A DNA stretch of 38,757 nt, taken from contig JAAEPD010000582.1 in the NCBI GenBank assembly GCA_024222455.1, forward strand, positions 1-38,757. The letters are read 5' to 3'. How positions within the stretch are numbered: position 1 is the first letter of the stretch; each line of letters starts with the position of its first letter. A program made the position numbers and the translations under genes. Positions 2,865-26,187 of this stretch are shown here, piece by piece. The stretch comes from Aureispira sp. GTDB taxonomy: Bacteria; Bacteroidota; Bacteroidia; Chitinophagales; Saprospiraceae. The notes under the pieces were generated by a model, which was given only the letters and a program-made list of their open reading frames with translations, was not told the origin of the DNA and did not search any database.

Positions 2865-3458
2865 ATGACAACCATTCGATTAGTTGAAGAAAAAGACAGT
2901 GCTGGCATACTTAATATCTATGCACCTTATGTTCTAGAAACAGCTGTTACCTTTGAGTTAGAGGTTCCTAGTCTTGAAGTTTTTTGGGAACGAGCGAAAA
3001 AAAATCTAGCTGAAGCACCTTTTTTGGTTTGCGAAATAGATGGACAAATAGCAGGTTATGCTTATGCTAGCCGCCATCGCTCTCGTGGAGCATACCAATG
3101 GACTAGAGAACTTTCTGTGTACGTACACCCTCATTTTAGAAAGCGCAAAATTGCTACAGCATTATATTTAACTATAATACAACTTCTCAAGCTACAGAAC
3201 TTCCGAAATGCTTTAGCAGGTATTACGATGCCCAATAGAGCTAGTATACTCCTTCACGAACACTTAGGGTTTGAGCTAGTAGGCACTTACAATAACATAG
3301 GTTACAAGTTAGGGAAATCGCATCAGGTTAGTTGGTGGGAACGCACACTTATTCCATCTAGTATACCAATGGTACCAATCAAAACAATGCAAGAGGTAGT
3401 TGAAACTGCAGAATGGCAAGAACAACTTAAATCAGGAATTCGATTAATTCGTGATTAA
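2865..3458 (+). CDS. GNAT N-acetyltransferase, phosphinothricin acetyltransferase-like
   Basis: This 197-residue cytoplasmic protein has the layout of the PAT/MnaT (YncA) branch of GNAT enzymes. It opens with TIRLVEEKDSAGILNIYAPY, followed by the typical TAVTFELEVPS segment. The acetyl-CoA-binding motif sits in VHPHFRKRKIATALY (about residues 87-101, R-x-x-K-x-A), and the C-terminal acceptor part contains NRASILLHEHLGFELVGTY. The family transfers acetyl from acetyl-CoA to the amine of small amino-acid-like substrates such as phosphinothricin or methionine sulfone. The last 25 residues extend past the usual end. It converges on the ATP-grasp gene with two bases between the stops, so it is not in that operon; a functional link to the OvoA pathway is possible but unsupported. 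Confidence 0.85.
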   Translation: MTTIRLVEEKDSAGILNIYAPYVLETAVTFELEVPSLEVFWERAKKNLAEAPFLVCEIDGQIAGYAYASRHRSRGAYQWTRELSVYVHPHFRKRKIATALYLTIIQLLKLQNFRNALAGITMPNRASILLHEHLGFELVGTYNNIGYKLGKSHQVSWWERTLIPSSIPMVPIKTMQEVVETAEWQEQLKSGIRLIRD

Positions 3459-3460
3459 GC

Positions 3461-4417
3461 CTAATTCAATCCAAAAACTTCCTTTAAGATCATTTGAGCC
3501 ATAGGATGCTGCTTTACTTCCGAAAAAGTATGGTGCAACCAATGTGGTCTAGGATTTATTTCCAATGCCCAAGTCGTATCCTCAGGGTATACTGTATGGT
3601 CTTTGGTTATAGCATCCAAAGCAAAGCAACTAGCATTTAACTCTTTAGCTAAAAGAGTTACCCACTCCTGATATTTTGGGTGTAACTCTTCTGTAATATC
3701 TATAGCTATGCCTCCTTGACTCATATTGGCAACATGCTTAAGTTTTATTTCTTGCCCTTTTTTAGGGATAGTAGACAATAGTAGACCTTGTATTCTTAAC
3801 AAGTCTTTCGTGACTTGATCAACAATTAGTTTATTAGCAGGATTTTGTTGTTTGATTACTTTAGAACGTTGACTGATTAACTCTTCTATATTCTGTTCTC
3901 CATCTCCTACCACATAAGCAGGTTTGCGACAACATGCTGCAACAATTTTTCCTCCCAAGATATGTATCCTAAGGTCTTCGCCCTCTACCTGCTCCTCCAA
4001 GAGAAATAATTTATACTTAGATTTCCAATTATTAAGATAGTCTTTTAAGTGTTCTTTTGTCTTAACATTCATTTCTACCCCATCCCCATCTGTACCATAT
4101 AAAGGCTTGGAGACATAGACTACCCCATCCACCCAAAAATCAGCAATAGCTTGCTCATTTTGAGTTGCTTCTATTACTATACTTTTAGGGCAAGTTATAC
4201 CTAGTTGTTCAAATGTACGTTTGGTAAGTTGTTTATTGTCTAGCCAAAACTCTGTTTGAGTATTTAGTAAGTTCAGTGGGAAACCTTCTCTAAAAACGAC
4301 TTCTTTATTGTCTTTTTTAAACAGTAAAATCCCCTCTGCACCTATGCTATCTAGCTCTATTACTTCTATAGCTAAATCTTTGGCTGCACTCACCAATTCT
4401 TGGTGCATCTTATGCAT
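3461..4417 (-). CDS. ATP-grasp amide ligase of the CphA/GshF type
   Basis: This 318-residue cytoplasmic protein carries the ATP-grasp core. KPLYGTDGDG (104-113) is the glycine-rich nucleotide loop. LLEEQVEGEDLRIHILGGK (139-157) and RKPAYVVGDGEQNIEELI (164-181) are the hallmark of cyanophycin synthetase and the GshF C-terminal domain. NMSQGG (231-236), ALDAI (266-270) and ALEINPRP (284-291) provide the Mg-ATP carboxylates. Such enzymes activate a carboxylate as acyl phosphate and couple it to an amine. The gene starts 6 bases after the stop of the OvoA-like gene, so the two are almost certainly cotranscribed. The product is therefore a good candidate for joining an amino acid to the thiohistidine product or to its precursor. 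Substrates cannot be read from sequence. A second in-frame ATG lies at 4406-4408. Confidence 0.85.
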   Translation of the reverse strand: MHKMHQELVSAAKDLAIEVIELDSIGAEGILLFKKDNKEVVFREGFPLNLLNTQTEFWLDNKQLTKRTFEQLGITCPKSIVIEATQNEQAIADFWVDGVVYVSKPLYGTDGDGVEMNVKTKEHLKDYLNNWKSKYKLFLLEEQVEGEDLRIHILGGKIVAACCRKPAYVVGDGEQNIEELISQRSKVIKQQNPANKLIVDQVTKDLLRIQGLLLSTIPKKGQEIKLKHVANMSQGGIAIDITEELHPKYQEWVTLLAKELNASCFALDAITKDHTVYPEDTTWALEINPRPHWLHHTFSEVKQHPMAQMILKEVFGLN

Positions 4418-4423
4418 ATAAGT

Positions 4424-5773
4424 CTAAGCGTTTTTAGCCATTCGGAAACCTGCATGTTGATAAAACTCTCTACGAAACCATAGTCGATAAAAGCGAGAAG
4501 CTCCTGTGCCTGTAGTTGCCCAAGCTCCACCTAGCATCATGCTATGCTCTGTATCAAAATAAGGCTCCGAAAAGTCAGTATACCAAGGATGTGTTTTAAA
4601 ATCTGGTAAAGCATACCAATCATCCTTTAGCCAATCCCATACATTTCCATAAATATCATTAAACCCAGAAACAGTTTGTCCCTCTTTCATTTGCCCAACA
4701 GGTGTAGGAGAACCTATAAACATGTTTAGATTATGAGCAGAAGCATCAAAAACCGGATCATAATCATCAGATCTACCCTCTTTAGCTATAAACATAAATT
4801 CTGCTTCTGACAGTAATCTCCATTCGTCCCCTTTCCACTTGCAATAAGCCCAAGCCTCATGGGCATTGACCTCTACAGGATAATCTAAAGGCATATACAC
4901 CACATCAAACATAGCTCTATAATTAAAAGTAGTTTTGTCTATAACCCAAAACTTAGGGTGCTTTGTATTGGTGCGTTGCTTCCAATTCCAGCCTTCTGCT
5001 GTCCAGTATTGCTTTTTACTATATGCTCCTGAGCGAACAAACTCTAAGTACTCTTGATTAGATATAAGATTTTGAGTTGCCTCAAATGGTTTGACCTCTA
5101 CTTCTAAACTTCCATACTCATTATCCCAACCATAAATAGTAGAATCTTGAGGTTTGCCTAAGCTCACCTTGCCTCCCTCCACTCTGATTAGCTTGTTCTC
5201 TGGTATATTTGTATTGGAAGAAACTGCATACTCCCAGCCATCAGGACGCTGTAGCAAATGTGCAGGTGCTTGTCGTATCAGCACAGAAGATGTTTCGAAA
5301 TGTATTCGATCATGCTCTAAACCCATAAACAAGGCCCACAAAGCTGATTTCTCATTAATGGGATACTCCAAGGGAGTAGTTGCAATTACCTCGCGCACTA
5401 CATTATAAACTGTTTTGCGATAAGCATCTACATCTGCTAAATTTGGCCATTTAGATTGTGTTTCTAGATTTTCAGGCAAGTCAGGGTCTACCCCTTTTGC
5501 AAATATATCTTCATAATATTCATTAATCCCTTCTTTTAGCAACCCTGCTAAAATCAATTTATTGATATAAAAGGCTGCGGTATGCCCCCAATAAAAAATA
5601 AGTGGATGACGCAAAGGATCAGGATTGATGTAATAAGTTGATTCGTCTTTGATAGAACTAAATAACCAATCGTATAGCTCCCAAGTATTGCAAAAATACT
5701 GGTCAAGTTCTTCACGAGTACAGTTATTCAATAAAACAGGATGTAGGCTTTGGGGTGGAGATAATGTTTCCAT
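4424..5773 (-). CDS. ovoA: OvoA-type 5-histidylcysteine sulfoxide synthase lacking the methyltransferase domain
   Basis: The 449-residue protein has a DinB_2-like iron-binding helical domain (about 20-180) and an FGE/sulfatase-modifying domain (about 190-447). Iron ligands are visible: H64 in YWGHTAAFY and the HX3HXE motif H154/H158/E160 in GLEHDRIHFETSSVLIRQ, which is the OvoA rather than the EgtB wording. The FGE part shows GWDNEYG, VEVNAHEAWAYCKWKGDEWR, GNVWDW and the closing FYQHAGFRMA. OvoA joins cysteine to histidine with O2 at C5 of the imidazole, the first step to ovothiol. Typical OvoA proteins carry a C-terminal SAM methyltransferase of roughly 250 residues; here the protein stops at the end of the FGE domain and an ATP-grasp gene follows 6 bases later. 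No OvoB lyase is nearby. EgtB is the alternative call, less likely from the motifs. Confidence 0.85.
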   Translation of the reverse strand: METLSPPQSLHPVLLNNCTREELDQYFCNTWELYDWLFSSIKDESTYYINPDPLRHPLIFYWGHTAAFYINKLILAGLLKEGINEYYEDIFAKGVDPDLPENLETQSKWPNLADVDAYRKTVYNVVREVIATTPLEYPINEKSALWALFMGLEHDRIHFETSSVLIRQAPAHLLQRPDGWEYAVSSNTNIPENKLIRVEGGKVSLGKPQDSTIYGWDNEYGSLEVEVKPFEATQNLISNQEYLEFVRSGAYSKKQYWTAEGWNWKQRTNTKHPKFWVIDKTTFNYRAMFDVVYMPLDYPVEVNAHEAWAYCKWKGDEWRLLSEAEFMFIAKEGRSDDYDPVFDASAHNLNMFIGSPTPVGQMKEGQTVSGFNDIYGNVWDWLKDDWYALPDFKTHPWYTDFSEPYFDTEHSMMLGGAWATTGTGASRFYRLWFRREFYQHAGFRMAKNA

Positions 5774-5906: not shown

Positions 5907-6686
5907 CTAAAATTTACCAGAATTCACCCATTGCTCACGAGGTTCTATAGCTTCTATTACATCCCAATGTTCTACAATTTTCCCTTCTTCAATTCTAAAT
6001 AAGTCCATAACTGCAAATTCCTTTTTATTCAAAACAGCTTTTGAATAACTCGCAACATAATTTCCATAGCCAATTACTTTGAATATAAAATCATACTGAA
6101 AATCCTCTGTAGCCAAAAATTGCTTTATTGGTCCCACCCCATTATCTAATTGAGGATTATGTTGGATGTATTGCTCTGTTGAAATATAATTCTCTATATT
6201 TTGGTAATTCTTATTTTGAAAAACATCAACAAAAAAGCTTCGAATCAATGCCTTGTTTTCTACTGTCTTATCTAGGTCTTTAGGTTCAAAATCACCTAAA
6301 ATTAAATCGTTTCCTGAAGTTGTATTTTCTTTATCTACATAAGGTATTATAACATCCCAATGCTCTATAAGCTTATCATTATCATCCGTATCAAAAATAT
6401 CCATAGTTACCCACCTAGAATGATTTGCTTGGCCTTTATTCAATTCTTGGTATGCATTCAAAAATACATAATTCCCATCTACAAAAGATCGAATTATTTG
6501 GATATCTCTATCAGGATTACGCTCAACAAAACCTTTAAAAAATTCTAAAAAGCCCTCTTGTCCATCCTTTACACTTTTGTTGTGCTGTGTATATCTAGCC
6601 CCTGTATACTTATGAATAGCATTCATATCTCCATCTCTGATACCTTCTAGGTATAACTTTTTAGCGGCCTCTTCTTTTGGGTTCAT
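5907..6686 (-). CDS. Protein with two tandem SnoaL-like (NTF2-fold) domains
   Basis: The 259-residue soluble protein contains two copies of a SnoaL-like NTF2-fold domain, at about residues 5-115 and 140-255. Each copy ends with the typical acidic/tryptophan strand: DKLIEHWDVIIPY in the first and IEEGKIVEHWDVIEAIEPRE in the second. Each also carries the early 'Y(I/T)QHN' motif (YTQHNKSV and YIQHNPQL). Single-domain members are small hydrolase, cyclase or isomerase-like proteins, often acting on lipophilic metabolites. The double form would give a pseudo-dimer in one chain. The substrate is unknown. The gene lies 110 bases downstream of the AraC-type regulator on the same strand, with its own promoter-like sequence, so the regulator may control it. 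Confidence 0.8.
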   Translation of the reverse strand: MNPKEEAAKKLYLEGIRDGDMNAIHKYTGARYTQHNKSVKDGQEGFLEFFKGFVERNPDRDIQIIRSFVDGNYVFLNAYQELNKGQANHSRWVTMDIFDTDDNDKLIEHWDVIIPYVDKENTTSGNDLILGDFEPKDLDKTVENKALIRSFFVDVFQNKNYQNIENYISTEQYIQHNPQLDNGVGPIKQFLATEDFQYDFIFKVIGYGNYVASYSKAVLNKKEFAVMDLFRIEEGKIVEHWDVIEAIEPREQWVNSGKF

Positions 6687-12689: not shown

Positions 12690-15600
12690 CTACTTAGCCT
12701 TTTCTGAAGTTGAATAAATCCTATTTCTAACTAAAAAAACACTTATAGCTGCTAAAAATAAACCAGCTATACTCCATCCCCAACTCTCCCAAAAACTTTG
12801 CCTTTTAGTTACTTCAATAGGACGACTATCTCCAATTTGAACAAATGGCGACCAAAAAGCTGGGTGGCCTGCTACACCCTTAGCATTTTTAAGGTAATTT
12901 AGTTTAGCCTGCCGCAAAGCTTCTGCCTTATTAACTCCTGTAGCTAGGTTTTGATACAATCTTTGCATAATCTTAGAAGTCGCTTGATCATTCACTTGCC
13001 ACAAGCTCACTATCATACTTGGCACCCCTGCATACATAAAAGCTCTTGCTAATGAGGCTATACCATTCCCTGTTTCAAATTTACCATAGCCTGTTTCACA
13101 AGCAGAAAGCACAACTAATGCTGCATTCAAATCCATTTTAGAAATCTCATAGGCCTGCAAAAAATTATTATCTATACTATCTCCATCTTCCGTAAATGCT
13201 AAACTCGAAAGTGCTCCATTTTCGTTGTTCAATAACCCATGCATTGCTACATGAATAATCCCATAATTCCCTGCTTCTTCCTTAAAAAATCGTTCTGTTG
13301 CAAGACTATCAAAAACAAAATTACCTTCAAAGTTTTTAGCCAATTCTTCTACTTCCTTACGAGCAGCAGGTAAGGGTGCCAAAAAATCTCTAATCTGTTT
13401 ATCCATAGGAGCTCTATGCATTAGTTTATCCTCTTCCACAGCATACTCATAATTAGCCACTACCCCTAAGATATTTCCATTAATTTGAGTTTGGTTATGG
13501 TCCTTACTTTCCTTCCATAATGCAACTGAATAGTTATAACTGATTTGATATTCTTGTAGAAGGTAAGATAGTTTGCTATAGTTTAGTTCATTTTCAGGAG
13601 CAGGATTCATTAAAAAGGTTTCAAAAGGCAAATGCCCCAATTTATCATCTGTTACTATAACTAAATGTTTAATAGCAGTACCTTCTAACAAAACTGGTTT
13701 AACTAATTCCTCATAAAACCAATAGGCGTTCTTAGTGTATTTTTGATAAGCACTTTGAGAGTCGTTGAGTATAGCATTATAATTACTCAATGTAAAATGA
13801 AATTTTCCAATCCGTTTATCTAGTTCTACCTTAGCTATAGGCAAAGCAGTCAACTTAAGATGTTTCTTGTCTAAATAAAATACATAGACGATAGAATCTC
13901 CAACCACATACTCTAGAAATGCAGTTTCATCGTCAAGTTCTTCTTGAATGGCCTCTACATTGGCTTTTGTCTGCTCATACTTTAATTTAGTATACTTTGG
14001 AAATTGTTCCTCTAGAGATTTCCTAAATGCCTTATGCTCAAAATTCAACTTATTCAAAACTTTCCTTAAACTATCTTTTTCTGATTTAGAATATTGTTCA
14101 AGAAGCTTAGATTTAAGCTCTCCTAATTTTTGCTGCAATAGTTGTTCTTTTTGCACTAAAGAATCTGGCAAACCTCCAAAAGTATAGGCTTTAGATGTTT
14201 TGGAAGCATCCATCAAGAGTACAGATTTACTCAGTTCAGCTAAATCAAATGCTTTTGCTACCTCTGTTTCTGGGTTAAAAACCTCTAAGCTTCGCAATGT
14301 CCAATCCGCTGTTTTAGATAAAACTCTAAGTTTATCATTATCATCTGAAAGATCATCTTTGCTTGATTTTAATAGTTTCATAGCCAAATCGACTATTATA
14401 ACCTGTTCTTCACGTCTATCCCCTATAGTCAAAAGATCATAAAGCAAATCAAGAGTATTAATCATTTCCTCAAATGAGACATACTCTGTTATTTCTGCCA
14501 ATTGAGCACTCCAAGTTCTATCAATAGTCTTACTGACAATTATTCCACTATTTGCATTTATAACTTCTATAGCACAAATTAAAGCCTTCTCATATTGCTT
14601 CATTTCTAGATACATCAAAAACATATTATTACTTATTCCAACATAAGTAATATGTCGTTTACCATATACCTTTTCATAAACAGCCAATGCTTCCAAATAC
14701 ATTACCTCTGCTTTTTTATACTCCTCTACATCTCTATAGAAACTTGCCAAATTACCCAAGTCCAAAGCATAAGCAGGATCCATTGTGCCTAATGTTTTTT
14801 TTGAGATTTCAAGAGCTTCCAAATACATTGACTTTGCTCGTTCTTCATCTCCCATTGCCTCATACAGATAAGCTAAATTACCTATACCCATAGCATAATA
14901 ATAATGCTCTGTACCTAAAACATTCTCAAATATCTCCAAAGCCTCTTTATACAAAGGTTCTGCCTCTTTATACTGGCCTGTAGTATAGTATAAAGCTGCT
15001 AAATTATTTAGATCTAAAGCATAACTCGGATCCTCCTCTCCCAAAATTACTCTATCTATAGCTATCGCTTGCTTATACAAAGATTCTGCTTCTGCATAAC
15101 GTCCTGTCTCATCATAAATTCCTGCTAAATAATTTAAAGTAAAAGCATAGTTTTCGCTTTCTTCCCCCTCTGCTTCCTTAAAAATATTCATTGCTTGCAA
15201 GAACAAACGCTCTCCTTCTTCATTTTTCCCCATTTCTACATTCAATCCAGCTAAATTGCTTAAATCAATAGCATAACTAGGAGCATCAGCTCCTAATACT
15301 TCTAAATCAATCTCTGCCGCTTCCAAATACATTGACATTGCATCTAGATATCTTCTCACATTCTGATAATAGAAGCCTAAACAGTTTAAATTGTGTACAT
15401 AAAGCGCATGCTTTTTCCCAAATATGTCCTCTCGAAGAGTTAATGCTTCTAAATACAAATGTTCCACCTTATCGTACTTTCCCATGCTTTCATACAAAGA
15501 CGCCAAATTATGAAGATTTTGGGCATACATAGCACTACTCTTAGCTAGTTTACTATAAGCAGTTTTTGTCTTTATATATAAAGACTCTGCCTCTTCATAC

Positions 15601-15983
15601 TCTTCAAAACCATAATAATAAACATCAGCAATAGCAAGCAAAGTATTGTTATAATCGATAGAAGTCGGAACCAACTTTTCTTGTACAGCAATAGCCTTTT
15701 CATAAGCTTCCATCGCGGCTTCAAACTCATATTGTGCATGTGTTAAACCTAACCCCCAATGAAAATAAATTCGAGCAGACAAAAGATCTTTAGGTTTGTC
15801 GCCTTCTAATTTTTTCATGGCCTCCTTTGCATAAGGATAAATTCTCTCATAGGCTTCTATTTGCTGCAAACTCATACAGATACTATCCAATTCTACTAAA
15901 GAATATTGACCAAGATTTTCTTGTGCAGATAATGAATAGATTAATATAAATTTAATTACAAATGAACTTAATAAATACCTCAT
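12690..15983 (-). CDS. Exported, membrane-anchored TPR-CHAT protease, copy A
   Basis: Started at ATG 15981-15983 the protein is 1,097 residues. The longer start at 16085 runs through a terminator and the promoter and is rejected. Order of parts: signal peptide (RYLLSSFVIKFILIYSLSAQ), a long row of 42-residue kinesin-light-chain-type TPRs (about 60-500; for example YAEAESLYKQAIAIDRVILG), a helical linker, then a CHAT domain (about 740-1060). The caspase-type pair is intact: H915 in HVAMHGLL and C962 in LSACETGYG. A single membrane helix (about 1069-1087, WSIAGLFLAAISVFLV) and a short basic tail close the protein. CHAT domains are caspase-like proteases; the layout predicts TPR and protease in the periplasm, held in the inner membrane. 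It is very like copy D and heads an operon with the NlpC and CAP genes. Confidence 0.88.
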   Translation of the reverse strand: MRYLLSSFVIKFILIYSLSAQENLGQYSLVELDSICMSLQQIEAYERIYPYAKEAMKKLEGDKPKDLLSARIYFHWGLGLTHAQYEFEAAMEAYEKAIAVQEKLVPTSIDYNNTLLAIADVYYYGFEEYEEAESLYIKTKTAYSKLAKSSAMYAQNLHNLASLYESMGKYDKVEHLYLEALTLREDIFGKKHALYVHNLNCLGFYYQNVRRYLDAMSMYLEAAEIDLEVLGADAPSYAIDLSNLAGLNVEMGKNEEGERLFLQAMNIFKEAEGEESENYAFTLNYLAGIYDETGRYAEAESLYKQAIAIDRVILGEEDPSYALDLNNLAALYYTTGQYKEAEPLYKEALEIFENVLGTEHYYYAMGIGNLAYLYEAMGDEERAKSMYLEALEISKKTLGTMDPAYALDLGNLASFYRDVEEYKKAEVMYLEALAVYEKVYGKRHITYVGISNNMFLMYLEMKQYEKALICAIEVINANSGIIVSKTIDRTWSAQLAEITEYVSFEEMINTLDLLYDLLTIGDRREEQVIIVDLAMKLLKSSKDDLSDDNDKLRVLSKTADWTLRSLEVFNPETEVAKAFDLAELSKSVLLMDASKTSKAYTFGGLPDSLVQKEQLLQQKLGELKSKLLEQYSKSEKDSLRKVLNKLNFEHKAFRKSLEEQFPKYTKLKYEQTKANVEAIQEELDDETAFLEYVVGDSIVYVFYLDKKHLKLTALPIAKVELDKRIGKFHFTLSNYNAILNDSQSAYQKYTKNAYWFYEELVKPVLLEGTAIKHLVIVTDDKLGHLPFETFLMNPAPENELNYSKLSYLLQEYQISYNYSVALWKESKDHNQTQINGNILGVVANYEYAVEEDKLMHRAPMDKQIRDFLAPLPAARKEVEELAKNFEGNFVFDSLATERFFKEEAGNYGIIHVAMHGLLNNENGALSSLAFTEDGDSIDNNFLQAYEISKMDLNAALVVLSACETGYGKFETGNGIASLARAFMYAGVPSMIVSLWQVNDQATSKIMQRLYQNLATGVNKAEALRQAKLNYLKNAKGVAGHPAFWSPFVQIGDSRPIEVTKRQSFWESWGWSIAGLFLAAISVFLVRNRIYSTSEKAK

Positions 15984-16012
15984 AAATATGAATTTATAGA
16001 TTTGGCAGAATT

Positions 16013-16020
16013 CAAATATA
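16013..16020 (-). promoter_or_regulatory. -7 promoter box of CHAT copy A
   Basis: The minus strand reads TATATTTG (complement of 16013-16020), a full TAnnTTTG match 30 bases before the start at 15983. The same box in the same context (+ strand TTCAAATATATAAA) precedes copy D at 26188-26195, which supports it as a kept element. No clear -33 TTG is seen. Confidence 0.5.
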
Positions 16021-16042
16021 TAAAACAATTTTATAATTAAAC

Positions 16043-16078
16043 ATAAAAAAAGCTGTCCAATAGATATACTATTGGACA
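16043..16078 (-). terminator. Intrinsic terminator after CHAT copy B
   Basis: Read on the minus strand, a perfect 10-base stem (TGTCCAATAG with CTATTGGACA, arms at 16054-16063 and 16069-16078, 5-base loop) is followed after GC by a run of T. It lies 30 bases past the stop of copy B and before the promoter of copy A, so copy A is a separate transcription unit. A close sequence relative occurs at 26233-26266. Confidence 0.8.
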
Positions 16079-16107
16079 ACTCCATAATTTGATTTTTTTA
16101 TTAAACC

Positions 16108-19100
16108 TTAAACCACTTCCTTTCTCTTTAGTTTACGCCATACCGCAAAAGCTCCAAATATAAATACACAAGCCCCCCCAAGCAATCCAAACTTCTGCCA
16201 CAAGCTGCCTTTCTGAGCTACCTCTATAGGCTGACTATCTCCTATTTGAATAAAGGGTGACCAAAAAGCAGGGTGTCCTGCTATTCCCTTAGCATTTTGG
16301 ATATAATCTAGTTTAGCTTGTCGCAAAGCTGCTGCTTTATTAGTACCTGTAGCTAGGTTTTTATACAAATCTTGCATTATCATAGAAGTTGCTTGATCAT
16401 TCACTTGCCACAGACTCACAATCAAACTAGGAGCACCTGCATACATAAAAGCTCTTGCCAATGAGGCTATACCATTGCCTGTCTCAAACTTTCCATAGCC
16501 TGTTTCGCAAGCAGAAAGTACGACCAACTCAGCATTCAATTCCATTTTAGAAATTTCATAAGCCTGCAAGAAATTGTTCTCTACACTATCCCCATTTTCT
16601 GTAAATGCTAAGCTTGATAATATTGGATTCTCAATATCCAACAAACCATGCATTGCCAGATGAATGATTCCATACTTCCTAGCATTTTGCTTAAACATCA
16701 CTTCATTGGCTTCTTTACCAAAAACAAATTCTCCATCAAATTTTTCAGATAACCCTTCTACCTCTTTTATAGCAGCAGGTAACGGTTTCAATACACCTCT
16801 TAATCTTTGATAGGCAGGTAATCTCAAGTCAACCTTGCTAGAATCTAATTTAATACTATAATCTGCTCCAATAGCTAGAATTTTATGATTATTCTCTTTT
16901 GGTTTTATTTCCTTATTTTCCTTCCATAAGGTCGCTGAATAGTTATAACTAATATTGTAATCCTTCATTAAGTAATGTAAATCACGGTAGCTAACTAAGG
17001 TATTCGAAGCCTCTTCTGCCAAAAAAGCTTCAAAGGGTAAATGGCCCAATTCACCATCAGTTACAATAATAAGTTCTTCAATATCTTTTTTGTCGTTTAA
17101 AGCTGGCTGCACTAAATTTTGATAAGCCCAATAAGCTTCTGTTGTATATTTTTCATAAGCTTCTTTAGGTTTAGAGGCCAACAATGCATAATTGCTCAAT
17201 ACCCATCGAAGTTTATCTACTCTATTAGCAAGTTTCTTTTTAGATATAGGCAATTTCAACAAGTCTATTTCAGATTTACTAATATAAAAAAGATAGATCA
17301 TTGAATCCACTACCACATATTCCAAAAAAGCTGCCCTATTATCTAATAGGTGCTGAATTTCCTCGATTTTGACAGTTTCAGATGAATATTTAAGTGCTGC
17401 ATGTTTAGGGTAATTTGCCTCTATATTCTCTTTAAAGTCATTCAATTTTATGGCTAAATCGTTGAATACAGACCTCAAACTATCTTCTTCCCTTTTAGAG
17501 AGTTTTTCTATCAGTCTAGCTTTTAACTCACTTGCTTTATTAAACAATGATTTTTCTTTTTGCACTAAAGAATCAGGTACCCCTCCAAAAGCATAAGCTT
17601 TATTGGTATTTATTGACTCTTGTAGCAAAACAGACTTTCCTTGTTCTGCAAAATCAAAAGCTTTAATAGGTTCTTTCTCATTTGAAATCTCCAAACCTCG
17701 CTCAAGCCACTCTGCACTACTTTTTAAGCTTCTCATTTTAGCCTCTGATGAGGGATATCCATTCCTGATTTTTTTTAAAAGCTGCAAAGCCAAATCTACT
17801 ATATAATATTTAGCCTTAACATCCCTATTCCTAGAGACTGACTTATAGAGTAGCTCCAATGTTACAATTGTATTTGCAATATGCCCAAGTGATTTATAAT
17901 CTACATTTGCCAAATGGTCCACCCAATCTTTGCTAACTTCCCATCCGATAGGTATTCCTGCATTAGCTTTTAGTGCTAAATGTATATACTTATTTGCTTC
18001 TTCATAGTTCTTGATAGCAATATTAACACCTACCAAGCTATTTAATGTTTTACCATAATTAATATTTTGGGTTTTCTCTGATTGTTCTTGCATTTTCTTA
18101 GACTCTATCCACGATGTTTTGGCCAACTCGTATTCTTCACCACCATAATAAACAACTGCCAAACTATTCAAAGATCTAAAATAATCAGAATGTTCTTTCC
18201 CTAGCAGTTTCAACCGGATTTGCATAGCTTTAAGAGCTGATTTTTTAGCCAACTCATGCTCTTTTAGTTGCACATACAAATGAGCTAAATTATCTAGAAT
18301 TATTGCATAATCAAGATTATCTTCCCCTTCTAAGGCATGCAGAATGTTTTTAGCCTTCAAATAAGCTTCCTTTGCTTCTTTGTATTTCTTCATATTAAAA
18401 TACACAGCAGCTATATTATTGAGTGTTACGAAAAATTTTAAATTATTAGTTCCTACCTTTTCGCTTTGGATACTCATAACTTCTAAATATAAAGAGAGAG
18501 CCTCTTCATAACGTCCAATATCATCCAACAAATGCCCTAAATTGCTTAATGCTGCAGCATACTCTAAAGAGTTTTCTCCTAACTTTTTTTTATCATTTGC
18601 TGCTCTAGCTAAATGAAATTGTTCTGCTTCTTCATATCGTCCCATAGATTGATAAACCCAAGCTAGATCACCAAGTACTATAGGGTATCGATAATCTGCC
18701 TGATCAAGATATTTGAGTATATCTATATGAAGCAACTCTGCTTTTTTGAAATCGTCAGTTTTTATATAAGAATCTGCTAAGTTTATTCTAGCAATACAAT
18801 AATTCAAATCATCTATTGGCGCTATTCTTTTCCGAATATTGACAACCTTTTGATAAGCTTCCGTTGCTTTTTTATATTGATTGAGTTTAGTGTAAGTATA
18901 ACCCAAGTTATTCAAAGTCATAAGGTATTCTTCATCCTCTTCTCCCAATAAGGTCAATTGCAAAGCAAGAATTTGCAAATAAAAAATTTTAGCCTGTTCA
19001 TAATCTTTTAAAAGCCAATAATACACATCTCCAATCCCAATCAAAGTCTTTGAATACTCTAAAGAATTAGGAATTTGTCGTTTTTGAATATGTTCTGCCT

Positions 19101-19404
19101 TATTGTAATAAAACATTGCTTTTTCTACATCATCATAAGCATAATCATAGGCTGTTCCTAAATTATAAGCCATACGTGCATATAAGGTGTCTTGATCACC
19201 CAATTGCTCTTTAGCTTTTGTCTCTGCTAACTGAGCATAAGGAATCATTTGTTCATAGTTTTCTTCATGGTACAACTGTTGGGTTATACGATCCAATTCA
19301 AGAATACTATACTTCGACAAAGTATCCTGTCCCCTCACTAAACCACTCATACTTAATAGCAATATCCAATATACTAAGCCTCTAATTCCGTTCTTCAAAA
19401 TCAC
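16108..19404 (-). CDS. Exported, membrane-anchored TPR-CHAT protease, copy B
   Basis: The 1,098-residue protein has the same layout as its neighbours: signal peptide (NGIRGLVYWILLLSMSGLVR, cleaved after GQ), 42-residue TPRs from about 60 to 510 (for example GRYEEALSLYLEVMSIQSEK), a helical linker, and a CHAT domain with H919 in HLAMHGLLD and C966 in LSACETGYG. The membrane helix near the end (LLGGACVFIFGAFAVW) carries the basic tail RKLKRKEVV. The tail and CHAT parts are much closer to copy C than to A or D. Only 47 bases separate it from the stop of copy C, without a visible promoter or terminator, so C and B are probably one transcript, ended by the hairpin at 16043-16078. Confidence 0.88.
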   Translation of the reverse strand: MILKNGIRGLVYWILLLSMSGLVRGQDTLSKYSILELDRITQQLYHEENYEQMIPYAQLAETKAKEQLGDQDTLYARMAYNLGTAYDYAYDDVEKAMFYYNKAEHIQKRQIPNSLEYSKTLIGIGDVYYWLLKDYEQAKIFYLQILALQLTLLGEEDEEYLMTLNNLGYTYTKLNQYKKATEAYQKVVNIRKRIAPIDDLNYCIARINLADSYIKTDDFKKAELLHIDILKYLDQADYRYPIVLGDLAWVYQSMGRYEEAEQFHLARAANDKKKLGENSLEYAAALSNLGHLLDDIGRYEEALSLYLEVMSIQSEKVGTNNLKFFVTLNNIAAVYFNMKKYKEAKEAYLKAKNILHALEGEDNLDYAIILDNLAHLYVQLKEHELAKKSALKAMQIRLKLLGKEHSDYFRSLNSLAVVYYGGEEYELAKTSWIESKKMQEQSEKTQNINYGKTLNSLVGVNIAIKNYEEANKYIHLALKANAGIPIGWEVSKDWVDHLANVDYKSLGHIANTIVTLELLYKSVSRNRDVKAKYYIVDLALQLLKKIRNGYPSSEAKMRSLKSSAEWLERGLEISNEKEPIKAFDFAEQGKSVLLQESINTNKAYAFGGVPDSLVQKEKSLFNKASELKARLIEKLSKREEDSLRSVFNDLAIKLNDFKENIEANYPKHAALKYSSETVKIEEIQHLLDNRAAFLEYVVVDSMIYLFYISKSEIDLLKLPISKKKLANRVDKLRWVLSNYALLASKPKEAYEKYTTEAYWAYQNLVQPALNDKKDIEELIIVTDGELGHLPFEAFLAEEASNTLVSYRDLHYLMKDYNISYNYSATLWKENKEIKPKENNHKILAIGADYSIKLDSSKVDLRLPAYQRLRGVLKPLPAAIKEVEGLSEKFDGEFVFGKEANEVMFKQNARKYGIIHLAMHGLLDIENPILSSLAFTENGDSVENNFLQAYEISKMELNAELVVLSACETGYGKFETGNGIASLARAFMYAGAPSLIVSLWQVNDQATSMIMQDLYKNLATGTNKAAALRQAKLDYIQNAKGIAGHPAFWSPFIQIGDSQPIEVAQKGSLWQKFGLLGGACVFIFGAFAVWRKLKRKEVV

Positions 19405-19451
19405 TTTTTTTTGTTAGTCCTCAATTTATCTATCCCCAATACAATTTAATC

Positions 19452-21764
19452 TTAAACAACTTCCTTTTTCTTTAGTTTACTCCATATTGCAAAAGCTCCA
19501 AACATAAAAATAAAAGCAGCTCCAATCAATCCCATTTTTTGCCACAAGCTTCCTTTTTGAGCTACCTCAACAGGTCGACTATCTCCCATTTGAATGAAAG
19601 GTGACCAAAAAGCAGGGTGCCCTGCTATTCCCCTAGCATTTTGAAGATAATTTAGTTTAGCCTGTCGCAAAGCTTCTGCTTTATTAGTACCCGTTGCTAG
19701 GTTTTGATACAAATCTTGCATTATCTTAGAAGTTGCTTGGTCATTAACCTGCCACAAGCTCACAATCAAACTTGGAGCGCCAGCATACATAAAGGCTCTT
19801 GCCAATGAGGCGATACCATTTCCTGTTTCAAATTTACCATAGCCTGTTTCACAAGCAGAAAGCACTACTAATTCTGCATTCAAATCCATTTTAGAAATTT
19901 CATAAGCTTGCAAAAAGTTGTTCTCTACACTATCCCCATTTTCTGTAAAAGCTAAACTAGACAGCATTTGATTTCTGTTATCTAAAAGACCATGCATAGC
20001 CAAATGAATAATTCCATATTCTCCTGCTTTTTGCTTAAACATAGCTTCATTAGCTGTTGCATCAAAAGCAAAATAGCCTTCAAATCTTTCTTGAAGCCCT
20101 TTCACTTCTTCTTCGGCAGCCGCTAATGGCTTCAATTGCTTTCTCAACTGCTTATAGGCAGGTAGCCTAGCTCCTAAAACATTAGGGTTAAACTCATAAT
20201 TAGCAGCTATACCAAGTATGTTATTATTAATTTGTTTAGAGAGGCTTTCTTTATTTTCTTTCCATAATGAGGCAGAATAGTTATAGCTAATTTGATAATC
20301 TTTTATCAAATAGTCTAAATCTGTATAATTAACAAAACTGGCAGGTGCTTCTTTTATCAAGAATGTTTCAAATGGCAAATGCCCTAAAACTCCATCAGGA
20401 ATAATAATAAGGTGCCGAATATTTGCTGATTTGACTAATACAGGCTCTAATATATTGGTATAAAACCAATGTGCTGAATTGCTATATTTAGTATAAACAA
20501 GATCATTGTCATTGGTTAATGCCATATAATTGCTCAGACTCCATCTAAGTTTATCAACTTTATCAACTAATGTTGTCTCCAAAATTGCTAACTCCACAAA
20601 TCGACTTTCTACTTTATCTATATAAAAAACATAAAGTGAAGAATCGTCTATAACATATTCTATCAATGCAGTTTGGTCTCCCAATAATTTTTGCACATCA
20701 CTAATAGCTAGATTGGTTTCTTTGTATTTAAGTTGGGCATATTTAGGAAAATCTCGTTCAACTCTATCTTTAAAAGCCTTAATATCCAAATTTAATTGAT
20801 TTAGCATTGTCCGAAAACTATCTTTTTGGTGTTTAGGTCGTTGCTCTAACAACTTTGCTCCAAGTTGACTTTGAGTTTTGTACAACAATTTTTCTTTCAA
20901 AGCTAAAGAATCTGGTAATGCCCCAAACTGATAGGCTTGTCGGCTATTAGAGGCTTCACCCAACAGCACTAACTTGTTTTGTTCTACAACCCTAAAAGCT
21001 TGATCTTTCTGGGTCTTTTTATTCAATGTTTTCAATTTGTAGTGCATCCAGTTATTGGATACTGTCAGCATACGCAGTTTATCCTTATTATGCGCAAATT
21101 CATCCCTATTCCTTTTCAAAAGAGTTAAAGTTAAATCAGCAAGAAGGCTTTGTTCATCTTTATTAGTCAACAACTGGCTGATTGTTTCTAAGGCATAAAT
21201 AGTAGCATTCATATGTTGATAAGAAGCATAATCTACTTGTGCTAAACTATTAACCCACTCCTGATTAATCTGCTCTCCTATATCAACCCTATTAACAGAC
21301 CTTATTCCCTCCATTAGCTTAGTTAAAGCAAGGTCTGGCTTTCCCATTTCTTTGTACAACCTAGCTAAACTAATAATAGTATTGGCATAATTAGGATGCT
21401 TTTTTCCATGTGTATTTACTGTTATATCTAAAGATTGTAGCAATAGTTCTTCTCCTGAACTATAGTTACCCATAACCTCATATAATCCAGCTAAATTTTC
21501 GAGTAGAGCAGAATAAGCAGAGTGCTCGTTCCCATAGATATTTTTATAAATATTTTTAGACTCTACAAGCAATTTTTCAGCCTCTTCATAACGTTGAGTT
21601 CTTTTGTATACTGCGCCCAAATTATTCAAGGCTAAAGCATAATCAGGATCGTTTTCCCCATATAATTCTGCATAAAGCCTTGCAACTTCCAACCCTAGTT
21701 TTTCGGCCTCATCATAACGTTTTAAATCTAAATACAGGTAGGCTAAATTATTCAAACTAGCCAT
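19452..21764 (-). CDS. TPR-CHAT protease copy C, 3' part in the -1 frame (TPRs, CHAT, membrane anchor)
   Basis: This open frame holds the remaining TPRs (for example KRYDEAEKLGLEVARLYAEL), the helical linker, the CHAT domain and the anchor of copy C. Numbered on the joined protein, the catalytic pair is H918 (HLAMHGLLDN) and C965 (LSACETGYG), and the end is the membrane helix GAAFIFMFGAFAIW with tail SKLKKKEVV. It has no signal peptide of its own and opens in the middle of a TPR, so it is not a natural independent gene, although the ATG at 21762-21764 lies 12 bases after an AGGAGGGAGG run and could be a restart site. The frame is open above the ATG to the slippery site at 21791-21797. Joined there to the 5' part, the product is 1,097 residues, the length of the other copies. 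Confidence 0.8.
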   Translation of the reverse strand: MASLNNLAYLYLDLKRYDEAEKLGLEVARLYAELYGENDPDYALALNNLGAVYKRTQRYEEAEKLLVESKNIYKNIYGNEHSAYSALLENLAGLYEVMGNYSSGEELLLQSLDITVNTHGKKHPNYANTIISLARLYKEMGKPDLALTKLMEGIRSVNRVDIGEQINQEWVNSLAQVDYASYQHMNATIYALETISQLLTNKDEQSLLADLTLTLLKRNRDEFAHNKDKLRMLTVSNNWMHYKLKTLNKKTQKDQAFRVVEQNKLVLLGEASNSRQAYQFGALPDSLALKEKLLYKTQSQLGAKLLEQRPKHQKDSFRTMLNQLNLDIKAFKDRVERDFPKYAQLKYKETNLAISDVQKLLGDQTALIEYVIDDSSLYVFYIDKVESRFVELAILETTLVDKVDKLRWSLSNYMALTNDNDLVYTKYSNSAHWFYTNILEPVLVKSANIRHLIIIPDGVLGHLPFETFLIKEAPASFVNYTDLDYLIKDYQISYNYSASLWKENKESLSKQINNNILGIAANYEFNPNVLGARLPAYKQLRKQLKPLAAAEEEVKGLQERFEGYFAFDATANEAMFKQKAGEYGIIHLAMHGLLDNRNQMLSSLAFTENGDSVENNFLQAYEISKMDLNAELVVLSACETGYGKFETGNGIASLARAFMYAGAPSLIVSLWQVNDQATSKIMQDLYQNLATGTNKAEALRQAKLNYLQNARGIAGHPAFWSPFIQMGDSRPVEVAQKGSLWQKMGLIGAAFIFMFGAFAIWSKLKKKEVV

Positions 21765-22744
21765 ATAAGTAGGATCATCCTCCCTCCTGCTTTTAAATAG
21801 ACATTCTTGGACTCTATAAACAATTGTTCAGCCTCTTCATAACGACCTAAATCCATATACAAAACAGCCAAATTATTCAAAGATAAGGCATGATCAATAT
21901 CTTCTTCATTAGTTAGGTGCTCACTTTTTTTATCATAAATAAATTTAACCTCTAAGTATAGTTTTTCAGCAGCCTCTAGGCGAGCCATATCGGTATAAAA
22001 ACCAGCTAAATTATTCAAAGTTACCAGATAACCAGGATGTTTTTTAGCATAAGCCTCAACATGTATTTTTTTAGCCTCTAAGTACAATTTTTCTACCTCC
22101 TCATACTTAGTTTCCATCTCCACATACAGATTTCCCAAATCATTCAATGATTCTGCATAAGCATGGTGATTTTGGCCATATTTTTCTCTATAGCCTTCCT
22201 TTATTTTAAGGTATAAAGATTCTGCTTTATCAAAACGTTTTGTTGATCTATATAAGTAAGCTAAATCACTTAGTACATAAATATGGTAAAGGTCCTCCTT
22301 CCTTTGTTTTTGTACAAAAATGGCTGCGCTCTTTTTGTACAAAGGTTCTGCTTCCTCAAATTCATCCCAATTATAATATAAAACCCCTGCTGTTTTCCAC
22401 AACGTTTCAGCATAAGCCATAGAGTTGGGTACCTGCTCTTTCTGAATAGCTCCTACTCTTGTATAAATGTCCATTGCTTTATCAGAATCACCCTCAGCAT
22501 AATCATAAAAATATCCCAAACTAAATAGCATCTTAGCATATAAGGTATCTTCTACACCATACAACTTCTTTGCCTTAGCTACTCCATATTCAGCATAAAC
22601 CAAGAGTTGCTCATAATCGTGAATTTCCTTATAAATATCAATAAAACTATCAATCTCATGAAGATCATAACGAGCCAAACTATCTTGTGCCTGTGCTCCA
22701 AAAGCCATCAAAATACAAATGAGACCGAGTATGTTTTTTTTCAT
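21752..22744 (-). CDS. TPR-CHAT protease copy C, 5' part in the zero frame (signal peptide, first TPRs)
   Basis: This frame supplies the signal peptide (KKNILGLICILMAFGAQAQ) and the first six or so TPRs (for example ARLEAAEKLYLEVKFIYDKK). It ends with 12 residues out of register (from AGGRMILL) and a TGA at 21752-21754, 330 residues in all, in the middle of a TPR. Without a frameshift it would make an exported TPR protein with no protease and no anchor. The frame change falls at or just after codon 318, at U UUA AAA. Causes may be a programmed -1 shift, a one-base loss in an A run, or a sequencing error; the sequence alone cannot decide. The gene starts 123 bases after the stop of copy D. Confidence 0.8.
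   Translation of the reverse strand: MKKNILGLICILMAFGAQAQDSLARYDLHEIDSFIDIYKEIHDYEQLLVYAEYGVAKAKKLYGVEDTLYAKMLFSLGYFYDYAEGDSDKAMDIYTRVGAIQKEQVPNSMAYAETLWKTAGVLYYNWDEFEEAEPLYKKSAAIFVQKQRKEDLYHIYVLSDLAYLYRSTKRFDKAESLYLKIKEGYREKYGQNHHAYAESLNDLGNLYVEMETKYEEVEKLYLEAKKIHVEAYAKKHPGYLVTLNNLAGFYTDMARLEAAEKLYLEVKFIYDKKSEHLTNEEDIDHALSLNNLAVLYMDLGRYEEAEQLFIESKNVYLKAGGRMILLIWLV
21791..21797 (-). other. U UUA AAA slippery heptamer at the frame switch of CHAT copy C
   Basis: The zero-frame codons read TAT TTA AAA GCA, so the heptamer T TTA AAA (complement of 21791-21797) is in exact X XXY YYZ phase. A -1 slip here gives SRREDDPTYMASLNN, which keeps the 11-residue spacing between the ESKN(I/V)Y and NLA(Y/G)LY parts of the TPR. 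A purine run AGGAGGGAGG follows directly. Possible downstream pairing is GGCTA with TAGCC, 12 bases apart. The heptamer is not rare in an AT-rich genome. Confidence 0.45.
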
Positions 22745-22867
22745 AAATCACTTCGAGTTTAATACTCTAAATATATAAGCAAATATTATCTATAGCACAC
22801 TAAATTCTTTCCAAGTTCTAATATATTAATCACCCCCAAAAACAGCGATCTATAATTATCTAATAAA

Positions 22868-25800
22868 TTATACTATTTCTCGTTTTCTAAAATTAATCCA
22901 AGCTATTATACTCAAAATCACTAATCCTAAAAGTACTGTTCCTCTAAACCACCATTTTGCAGCATCCCCTCCTTTGACAGCCACTTCAATAGGTCGACTA
23001 TCTCCTATTTGAACAAAAGGAGACCAAAAAGCAGGATGCCCATTAATTCCCTTGCTATTTCCTAGATAATTCAATTTTGCTTGCCTCAAAGCCTCTGCTT
23101 TATTCATACCTTTAGCTAAATTTTGATATAAATTTTGCATAATCATTGAGGTTGTTTGATCATTGACTTGCCACAGACTCACCACCATACTTGGCACACC
23201 TGCATACATAAAAGCTCTAGCCAAAGAAGCAACCCCATTTCCTCTTTCAAATTTCCCATAACCAGTTTCGCAAGCAGAAAGCACCACAAGAGCTGCATTC
23301 AAATTCATTTTAGAGATCTCATAAGCTTGCAAAAAATTATTATCTACACTATCTCCATCTTCTGTAAATGCTAAGCTCGAAAGCACCGCATTCTTATTAT
23401 TCAATAATCCATGCATAGCTAAATGAATAATCCCATACTCTCCTGCTTGTTTCTTAAACAATTTCTCTGTAGCAAGGTTATCAAACACAAAAGCACCTTC
23501 AAATTTCTCAGCCAATGCTTCCACCTCCTTTCGTGCAGCAGGCAAAGGTGCCAAAAACCCTCTAAGATGTTTATCTATAGGAGCTCTCACCATCAATTTA
23601 TCTTCTTCTACTGCATACTCATAATTAGCAGCTACACCTAAAATTTTTCCATTAATTTGAGTTTGTTTATGATCCTTACTTTCCTTCCATAAAGCAGCTG
23701 AATAATCATAACTAATCTGATATTTTTGAAGAAGATAGGGCAAGTTTTTATAGTCTAGTTCCTTTTCAGAAGCAAGATCCGTCAAGAATGTCTCAAAAGG
23801 CAAATGCCCTAATTTATCATCTGTCACAATAATCAAATGTTTGACAGCATCATCCCCCAACAAAGCTGGCTTAACTAATTTTTCATAAAACCAATATGCA
23901 TTCTTAGTATATTTGTGATAAGCACCTTGAGGGTCTTTGACTACAGCATTATAATTACTCAACATAGCATGGAACTGCCCAATTTGTTTATTCAACTCTA
24001 CTTTAGAAACAGGTAAAGTAACTAATTTAAGTAGCTTCTTATCCAAATAAAACACATAAACTGTTGAGTCGCCTACTACATATTCCAAAAATGCCGTTTC
24101 ATCATCTAATGTTTCTTGAATATCCATCACATTAGTTGTAGTCTGTTCATATTTTAACTTAGTGTATTTCGGAAATTTTTCCTCTATAGACTTCCTAAAT
24201 GCTTTGTGTTCAAAATTTAATTTATTCAGAATTTTTCTTAAACTATCTTTTTCTGATTTAGAATGTTTTTCGAGAAGTTTAGATTTAAACTCCGCTAATT
24301 TTTGTTGCATCAATTGTTCTTGTTGAACCAAAGAATCTGGCAATCCTCCAAAACTATAAGCTTTAGATGTTTTTGAGGCATCCATTAAGAGCACAGACTT
24401 GCTCAACTCTGAAAACCCAAATGCCTTTGCGACCTCTGTTTCTGAATTTAAGACCTCCAAGCTTCGCAATGTCCAATCTACAGCTTTAGTCAAAACCCTA
24501 AGCTTATCATTCTCATCAGAAAGATTATCTTTACTTGATTTCAATAATCTCATGGCTAAATCAACTATAATGACTTGCTCATCACGTTTTTTTTGAATAG
24601 CTAAAAGCTCATAAAGCAAATCCAATGTATTAATCATTTCCTCAAATGAAACATACTCGGTGACCTCTACCAATTGAGCACTCCAATCTTTATTAATAGT
24701 TTTATTGGCTGTTGCTATTCCACTATTTGCATTTACAATCTCTAAACCATAATTTAAAGCTTTATCATATTGCTTCATCTCTATATACATCAAAAGCATA
24801 TTATTTCCAGCTCCAATGTAGTTGATGTGCTGTTTACCAAATGCTTTTTCATAAACAGCTAATGCTTCCAAATACATGGGTTCTGCTTTTTCATACTGCT
24901 CTATATCTCTATAAAAACTTGCCACATTTCCTAAATCTAAAGCATAAGTAGGGTGCATTGTTCCCAATGTTTTTTTTGAAATCCCAAGAGCTTCTAAATA
25001 CATTAATTTTGCTCTTTCCTTATCTCCCATTGCCTCATATAGATAAGCTAAATTACTTATGGCCATGGCATAATAATAGTGATCTGTACCCAAAACATTC
25101 TCAAATATCTCCAAAGCCTGCTTATACAAAGGTTCTGCTTCTTTAAATCTCTCTGTAACATAGTACAAAGCAGCTAAATTGTTTAAATCTAGAGCATAGC
25201 TAGGGTCTTCCTCCCCCAAAACTACTTTATCTATAGCGATTGCCTGCTTATACAGAGGTTCTGCCTCTGCATAACGTCCTGTCTCATCATAAATTCCTGC
25301 TAAAGAATTTAATGTACTAGCATAGGTTTCGCTTTCTTCCCCTTCTGTCTCCTTAAAAATATCCATTGCTTGCAAGTACAATCTTTCCCCTTCCTCATAT
25401 TTTCCTATTTCTACATTCAGTGCTGCTAAATTGTTTAAATCGGTAGCATAATCAGGGTGGTTTGCCCCCAATACTTCCAAATCAATATCTGCTGCTTCCA
25501 AATACATAGCATTTGCCTCTAAATACCGTCCTACTGTTTGGTAAAAGAAACCTAAACAGTTAAGGTTATGTGCATAGATTGCATGTTTTTTCCCGAATAT
25601 ATCTTCACGAAGAGCTAATGCCTCCAAATACAAGGGTTCTACCTTTTCATACTTCCCTGTACTTTCATACAACGATGCCAAGCTATGAAGATTTTGAGCA
25701 TATGTAGCACTATGCTTAGCTAGTTTGCTATAAGCTGCTAGTGTCTTTAAATATAAGGTCTCTGCCTTTTCATACTCTTCAAAAGCATAATTATATATAT

Positions 25801-26158: not shown

Positions 26159-26187
26159 GAACATAGGTTTAGTGTTTTGATAGTATT

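Follow-up and report, generated by a model that had tools for sequence, protein, structure and literature searches.

Organization of the locus

The window analysed here is a 38,757-nucleotide stretch of Aureispira sp. DNA, contig C582 of G000, a genome in 683 contigs totalling 7.76 Mb. It carries two neighbouring minus-strand genes, probably forming one operon, for a sulfoxide synthase of the OvoA/EgtB type and an ATP-grasp ligase. Three-histidine iron enzymes of the OvoA/EgtB kind use O2 to join cysteine sulfur to an imidazole carbon. The gene pair is a conserved, co-inherited module, and its product is probably a small sulfur compound other than ovothiol or ordinary ergothioneine. The features are as follows:

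4424-5773, minus strand: sulfoxide synthase of the OvoA/EgtB type, non-heme iron, DinB_2 and FGE domains, no methyltransferase domain, 449 residues
3461-4417, minus strand: stand-alone ATP-grasp ligase of the CphA/GshF type, 318 residues
4418-4423, minus strand: intergenic gap of 6 bases between the two genes (probable operon)
5582-5584, minus strand: codon of His64, predicted Fe ligand (His in 59/59 full alignment rows)
5312-5314, minus strand: codon of His154, predicted Fe ligand (His in 59/59 full alignment rows)
5300-5302, minus strand: codon of His158, predicted Fe ligand (His in 59/59 full alignment rows)
4478-4483, minus strand: codons of Leu431-Trp432, aligned with Asn414-Trp415 in the hercynine pocket of MthEgtB (Leu-Trp in 8/8 clade rows)
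3521-3535, minus strand: codons of HHTFS, residues 295-299, part of the W-x-HHTFS signature (invariant in 7/7 ligase homologues)

With TIGR04344 (ovoA_Nterm), whose cut-off is 400 bits, the synthase reaches 565; with TIGR03440, the model of classical EgtB, it reaches 157 bits and stays below the cut-off of 360. Since the TIGR04344 match covers residues 13-445 of 449, the protein stops just past its FGE domain, without a methyltransferase domain. In a broad alignment, each of the 59 full rows has histidine in the columns of the three predicted iron ligands; the 60th row is an MthEgtB fragment that does not span them. An earlier, sequence-only reading of this DNA had described the two open reading frames, their 6-base spacing, a synthase ending right after FGE, and the ligands H64, H154 and H158; the frame positions, the TIGR04344 span and the alignment agree with it exactly.

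A conserved and co-inherited gene pair

In a draw of 199 genomes of the family (treated as one draw for the ligase, synthase and EgtD counts, since the listed genomes agree), the ligase is matched at E<=1e-10 in 33 genomes, six of which carry a close homologue (E 7e-82 or better). The five close ligases besides that of the window show 45-50% identity in frames of 317-346 residues; the remaining 27 matches reach 26-32%, and 25 of these 27 lie in frames of 878-924 residues, the size of cyanophycin synthetase. The synthase is matched at E<=1e-30 in eight genomes, of which seven hold a close enzyme without methyltransferase domain (the six besides the window at 59-63% identity) and one, G397, a fused OvoA (720-residue frame, 41% identity). 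All six close-ligase genomes, from six genera, lie among the seven close-synthase genomes (Fisher p 9e-11, uncorrected for kinship). How often the pair recurs had been put forward earlier as a point to survey, and the survey identifies the ligase as a conserved, co-inherited partner of the synthase. A larger family draw finds the ligase family in 7 of 398 genomes; the added one is G589, whose synthase match equals the synthase of its congener G516 in score and frame length. Across the phylum (395 genomes), the ligase profile is matched at E<=1e-35 in 53, and only the window's own ligase exceeds 176 bits (525), which marks the family as one of confined distribution.

The two genes lie adjacent on the same strand, synthase first, in G000 (gap of 6 bases), G480 (3), G553 (4), G585 (3) and G499 (73), and again in the metagenome-assembled genome (MAG) Flavobacteriales bacterium HF-Dia22 (L085), where they overlap by ATGA (start assigned by homology). 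The 39 loci in the tree described below were drawn from the best 80 of at least 572, some of them ending at contig edges, and among those 80 L085 is the only one with a ligase-profile match. The order of synthase and ligase is beyond chance: six genomes share it, and the other genes listed around the pair vary among them. In G516 some 135 kb of a 7.3-Mb contig separate the two genes, and in G589 they are on separate contigs, so that linkage alone cannot account for their joint presence. Pairwise distances between the synthases and between the ligases of seven genomes correlate at r 0.86; of 5040 permutations, 6 give a value this high, and the true pairing is one of these 6. Shared species history contributes to this correlation.

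Phylogeny and pocket motif of the synthase

The main tree comprised 53 rows without an outgroup: 39 loci, 11 genome rows (the window included) and 3 PDB rows. Forty rows form the OvoA group (100/100), four of them without a methyltransferase domain. The window sequence falls outside this group, on the EgtB-IV side of the tree, in a clade of eight rows (96/97) that holds the window, six family members (G415 included) and L085. This clade is separate from the EgtB-IV group, whose three rows (100/99) are the sole EgtB-IV rows available. Two single enzymes from other loci, L086 and L088, fall on the EgtB-IV side, outside the window clade; in an earlier tree that had a distant EgtB as outgroup, the base was unresolved and these two grouped with the window clade at 90. 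Placement with EgtB had been named beforehand as what would speak against an OvoA-type enzyme, and the phylogeny does not put the synthase with classical EgtB.

The clade also carries its own residues in the substrate pocket. PMC9103826 gives the hercynine pocket of EgtB as Asn414-Trp415 in MthEgtB and Asn-Phe in CthEgtB. In the alignment, the corresponding pair is Leu-Trp in all eight rows of the window clade, as it is in L086 and L088; it is Asn-Trp in 3/3 EgtB-IV rows, Asn-Phe/Trp in 6/6 EgtB rows, and Tyr/Phe followed by Ala/His in 40/40 OvoA rows. His154 is followed by Asp in 8/8 window-clade rows and L088, by Gln in 3/3 EgtB-IV rows, and by Glu in 33 of the 40 OvoA rows, all six EgtB rows and L086. 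With a clade and a pocket motif of its own, the synthase can be classed neither as a truncated OvoA nor as a plain EgtB-IV. Judged by tree and alignment, it is a separate lineage beside type-IV EgtB rather than an OvoA that shed its methyltransferase. The sequence-only label of an OvoA without methyltransferase was right about the missing domain; the OvoA ancestry that it implied does not hold, EgtB-IV having been left out of consideration. A scan of viral contigs with the synthase gave zero matches.

It is possible that the enzyme is EgtB-IV-like in function as well, presumably of the ergothioneine type. In the window species at least, the hercynine of an unlinked EgtD would then be turned into ergothioneine by thiolation at C2, and the ligase would act on ergothioneine or on something else. 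The nearest solved structures favour this, namely EgtB-IV 8vih at 492 bits and 8vig at 443 (50 and 48% identity, similar length), followed by OvoA 8khq at 341, as does the position of the synthase on the EgtB-IV side of the tree (100/100). However, the pocket Asn of MthEgtB, of 6/6 EgtB rows and of 3/3 EgtB-IV rows is Leu in 8/8 clade members, and the clade (96/97) is separate from EgtB-IV (100/99). We consider such an ergothioneine route unlikely, also in view of the carriers without EgtD described below.

The ATP-grasp ligase

The product of 3461-4417 scores below the cut-offs of the families that it resembles: 155.5 of 850 bits for CphA, 133.5 of 569 for N-acetylglutaminylglutamine synthetase and 112.7 of 425 for GshF. 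The CphA-model match spans only positions 212-471 of 862, the protein being 318 residues in all. Its predicted structure (pLDDT 86 for the best of five models, 55 for the worst) aligns best with CphA1 7wae_A (Z 29.2, 312 residues, 3.3 A) and with GshF 3ln6 (Z 27.2, 314 residues, 3.0 A), and identity in the best fold matches is 21-26%. K104, D268, E286 and N288, which we take to be ATP/Mg ligands, are invariant in 7/7 homologues, as is W-x-HHTFS, a signature of this ligase family's own. By modelled fold and ATP/Mg residues the protein thus belongs to the ATP-grasp superfamily, and its description as a CphA/GshF-like enzyme with intact motifs is borne out. ATP-grasp enzymes of the CphA, GshF and N-acetylglutaminylglutamine types form peptide bonds via an acyl phosphate, and by analogy the ligase most likely forms peptide bonds too. 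A plasmid search with the ligase returned 130 records, all below 60% identity; among the matches listed, identities are 26-30%, and the proteins are N-acetylglutaminylglutamine synthetase, cyanophycin synthetase or GshAB where annotated, with one hypothetical. A single-sequence scan of genome contigs found no confirmed relative.

Methyltransferase, EgtD and EgtB in the carrier genomes

The surveys of the carrier genomes covered METHYLTRANSFERASE, EgtD and EgtB. A separate OvoA-type methyltransferase, which the sequence-only reading had suggested seeking, was found over cut-off in none of the eight carriers with the only model tried, that of the OvoA C-terminal methyltransferase of the OvoC type (TIGR04345, cut-off 170 bits). 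The best carrier score is 46 bits (G480) and the window genome reaches 30; four fused-OvoA genomes score 270-301. Weak matches below the cut-off turn up in each of the 12 genomes and each of the 14 controls, which is to be expected of common methyltransferases, and the carriers may encode an unrelated one. Since no carrier has an OvoA-type methyltransferase over cut-off, ovothiol is an unlikely product of the pair, so far as gene content can tell. We likewise give little probability to a route in which the synthase product is plain 5-thiohistidine, or is turned into ovothiol by an unrecognised methyltransferase, and the ligase has a separate function. Such a route would agree with a TIGR04344 score in excess of the cut-off and with the methyltransferase-less OvoA homologues that PMC12631010 reports beside 5-thiohistidine N-acetyltransferases (5THNATs), most of the latter being from Bacteroidota. 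It is at odds with the absence of OvoC over cut-off and with the co-inheritance of ligase and synthase even where they are unlinked.

EgtD (PF10017) is present in 69 of the 199 family genomes, in 2/7 carriers (G000 and G516) and 67/192 others, and is hence unlinked to the pair. The single EgtD of the window genome is barely over the TIGR03438 cut-off (291.1 of 290.9 bits); it retains the residues aligned with the Glu and the Ser in the TEVS motif of M. smegmatis EgtD, which we take to be functional. Ordinary EgtB is found over cut-off in 63 of the 67 other EgtD genomes (9 in one set, 54/58 in a second); among the rest, G401 and G497 have fragments only, and G556 and G580 have no match at the E-value limit used. 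It is found over cut-off in 0/8 carriers. The EgtD of G000 and G516 thus lacks its usual partner. EgtB is equally below cut-off in the five EgtD-free non-carriers examined (G395, G396, G397, G398 and G411), and because the EgtD-free comparison covers only these five genomes, we claim no mutual exclusion.

These distributions cut both ways for the ergothioneine route. The window genome and G516 each have EgtD without ordinary EgtB, as this route would predict, but five of the seven carriers have no EgtD, and two of these, G480 and G553, are 99-100% complete. Activity on hercynine alone would not be decisive either, since OvoA can accept hercynine in vitro (PMC9103826). The same paper has OvoA acting on histidine at C5 and moving toward C2 as the alpha-amine gains methyls. 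With EgtD and no ordinary EgtB in the window genome, the chemistry of the first step could be at C5 of histidine or at C2 of a methylated histidine.

Related loci and neighbouring genes

The two enzymes outside the clade that share the Leu-Trp pair are encoded beside amide-forming genes of other kinds. In a Gammaproteobacteria MAG, OFTM90 (L086:326-8765), the synthase lies between a TauD-type dioxygenase and a non-ribosomal peptide synthetase (NRPS) gene, which starts 65 bases downstream and extends past the contig end. In the Gemmatimonadetes MAG.277 (L088:4007-9981) it lies near an asparagine-synthase-like gene and a halogenase-like flavoprotein, with a convergent PatB-family C-S lyase gene cut by the contig end. 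The NRPS and the asparagine-synthase-like neighbour are amide-forming analogies that support the idea of ligation.

In Sulfuricurvum (L139:7899-10515 and L162:7953-10527) a methyltransferase-less OvoA is followed by an overlapping class I/II pyridoxal phosphate (PLP) enzyme gene (Aminotran_1_2), whose product is PatB/MalY-like by eye and possibly OvoB (the start in L139 is uncertain). A family of about 345-390 residues is encoded directly beside OvoA in two Alphaproteobacteria MAGs with methyltransferase-less OvoA and two Alteromonadales with fused OvoA (L094:1413-2444, L135:9301-10356, L154:6762-7892 and L164:6784-7962), its gene overlapping OvoA by 4 bases in Thalassotalea. Searches with this family gave no credible match in Pfam (best 0.077) or PDB, nor in NCBIfam for two members, and a PDB profile search returned nothing at E<=10; to the eye, the motifs R-x-E-x-R...NPYL and GGHQGS resemble those of glutamine synthetase. 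Methyltransferase-free synthases may be repeatedly paired with amide-forming enzymes that differ in fold: ATP-grasp, NRPS, asparagine-synthase-like, and perhaps this family that recalls glutamine synthetase.

Next to the pair in the window, a GNAT gene (2865-3458, plus strand) converges on the ligase gene at a distance of 2 bases. Its product resembles ArsN1b/phosphinothricin acetyltransferase (179 of 210 bits). As a candidate 5THNAT it was set apart, without comparison to 5THNAT sequences, for being of this type and having no homologue at the loci examined in other carriers; one weak match, at 29 bits, lies in the fused-OvoA locus L133. Two genes upstream of the pair on the same strand were also rejected as pathway genes. 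A SnoaL-like gene (5907-6686, minus strand) has a relative near the pair only in G499, the window's nearest relative (L062:4575-4955, plus strand), there on the opposite strand to the synthase; the two SnoaL-like proteins score 67 bits against each other. An AraC gene recurs near no other pair and has one weak match, in the EgtD locus L076. In G480 a POT-family peptide transporter gene (L059:8746-10485) directly follows the pair, and in G516 one (L071:8978-10528) converges on the synthase gene; noticed in these two genomes only, this proximity is suggestive. Further along the window (12690-26164, minus strand) lie long similar open reading frames with, by eye, TPR repeats and a C-terminal CHAT-type domain.

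A proposed pathway

Given a pairing that is kept, catalytic residues that are kept, no OvoA-type methyltransferase over cut-off and a distinct synthase clade with its own motif, we lean toward the view that the two genes serve one pathway, whose end product would be an amide- or peptide-conjugated thiohistidine lacking the methyl of ovothiol. Judging from its family, the synthase would use O2 to couple cysteine to an imidazole, that of histidine or of a histidine derivative, giving a cysteinyl sulfoxide. A putative PLP C-S lyase encoded elsewhere would then free the thiohistidine, and the ligase, like its relatives, would convert a carboxylate to an acyl phosphate and join it to an amine as an amide. 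The broader proposal is more tentative and in our estimate falls a little short of even: that the clade is a third histidine sulfoxide synthase lineage, next to OvoA and to EgtB with EgtB-IV, and that in Bacteroidota its thiohistidine enters a peptide-like low-molecular-weight thiol via the dedicated W-x-HHTFS ligase.

Thiolation followed by ligation is the order that we favour, and the reverse order suits the changed pocket almost equally. EgtA supplies EgtB with gamma-glutamylcysteine, a precedent for a ligase that acts first. Perhaps, then, the true substrate of the synthase is a histidine- or cysteine-containing dipeptide made by the ATP-grasp enzyme, whose relatives form peptide bonds; the columns that distinguish the substrate classes do take a form of their own in the window clade. 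However, nothing indicates the order of the steps, and the ligase gene is downstream in all six adjacent pairs. We regard a ligase that acts first as improbable.

Several observations weigh against a conjugated thiohistidine. The principal one is that EgtD occurs without ordinary EgtB in G000 and G516 and that this is rare elsewhere (p 0.003 and 0.006), so that in these lineages the synthase may meet hercynine. G415 (92% complete) holds no close ligase; its synthase gene sits on a contig of 3.1 kb, with a RimK-like ATP-grasp gene 394 bases past it (L072:1969-2892) instead of the usual one. The ORF listings around the pair contain no lyase gene, no genome-wide lyase search having been made. The predicted structure of the synthase is poor (pLDDT 53), so that the pocket argument rests on the alignment. 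Finally, the NRPS and asparagine-synthase neighbours are each seen at a single locus. The earlier interpretation as a whole, a methyltransferase-lacking OvoA coupled to a ligase in a possibly new thiol pathway, is therefore supported in part: the lack of an OvoA-type methyltransferase and the conserved ligase speak for it, the identity as a truncated OvoA does not.

The enzymes are known for few products of sulfoxide-synthase chemistry, namely ovothiol A, ergothioneine, the selenium analogues and, since 2025, N-acetyl-5-thiohistidine. The conserved synthase-ligase pair is a concrete and assayable two-gene candidate for an addition to them, and the Leu-Trp motif offers a testable residue rule across three substrate classes. 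In the open-access papers searched, most subscription literature lying outside the search, no paper joins OvoA, ATP-grasp and ovothiol, thiohistidine and ATP-grasp, or sulfoxide synthase, ATP-grasp and thiol. Titles and abstract openings on an NRPS, or on a ligase or dipeptide, with this chemistry describe no such system among the matches listed. The superfamilies are known; their conserved combination was not found in print, and the synthase lineage is distinct.

Comparison with known systems

The window synthase resembles the EgtB-IV enzymes 8vih and 8vig in sequence (48-50% identity), in length, in having no methyltransferase domain and in its side of the tree. It differs from them in forming its own clade, in carrying Leu-Trp for Asn-Trp and EHDRIH for EHQRIH, and in its partner gene, which is an ATP-grasp ligase, whereas Microcystis L087 has EgtD just upstream. 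With OvoA (8khq; TIGR04344) it shares a score over the family cut-off and the three Fe histidines, but it has neither the C-terminal methyltransferase nor the Tyr/Phe-Ala/His pair, and it lies outside the 40 OvoA rows.

The ligase shares its fold and conserved ATP/Mg residues with CphA1 and GshF in their ATP-grasp parts. Unlike these, it is a stand-alone protein of 318 residues, at 21-26% identity and far below their cut-offs, with its own W-x-HHTFS; it has no full-length CphA match that would include the C-terminal ligase domain, and no fused GshA ligase domain as in GshF.

A parallel for the proposed product comes from the 5THNAT system. Bacteria, mainly Bacteroidota, acetylate 5-thiohistidine, some of them using OvoA homologues without a methyltransferase (PMC12631010). 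As would be the case here, the alpha-amine of 5-thiohistidine is capped, but the capping enzyme of that system is a GNAT acetyltransferase, whereas in the window this role would fall to an ATP-grasp ligase.

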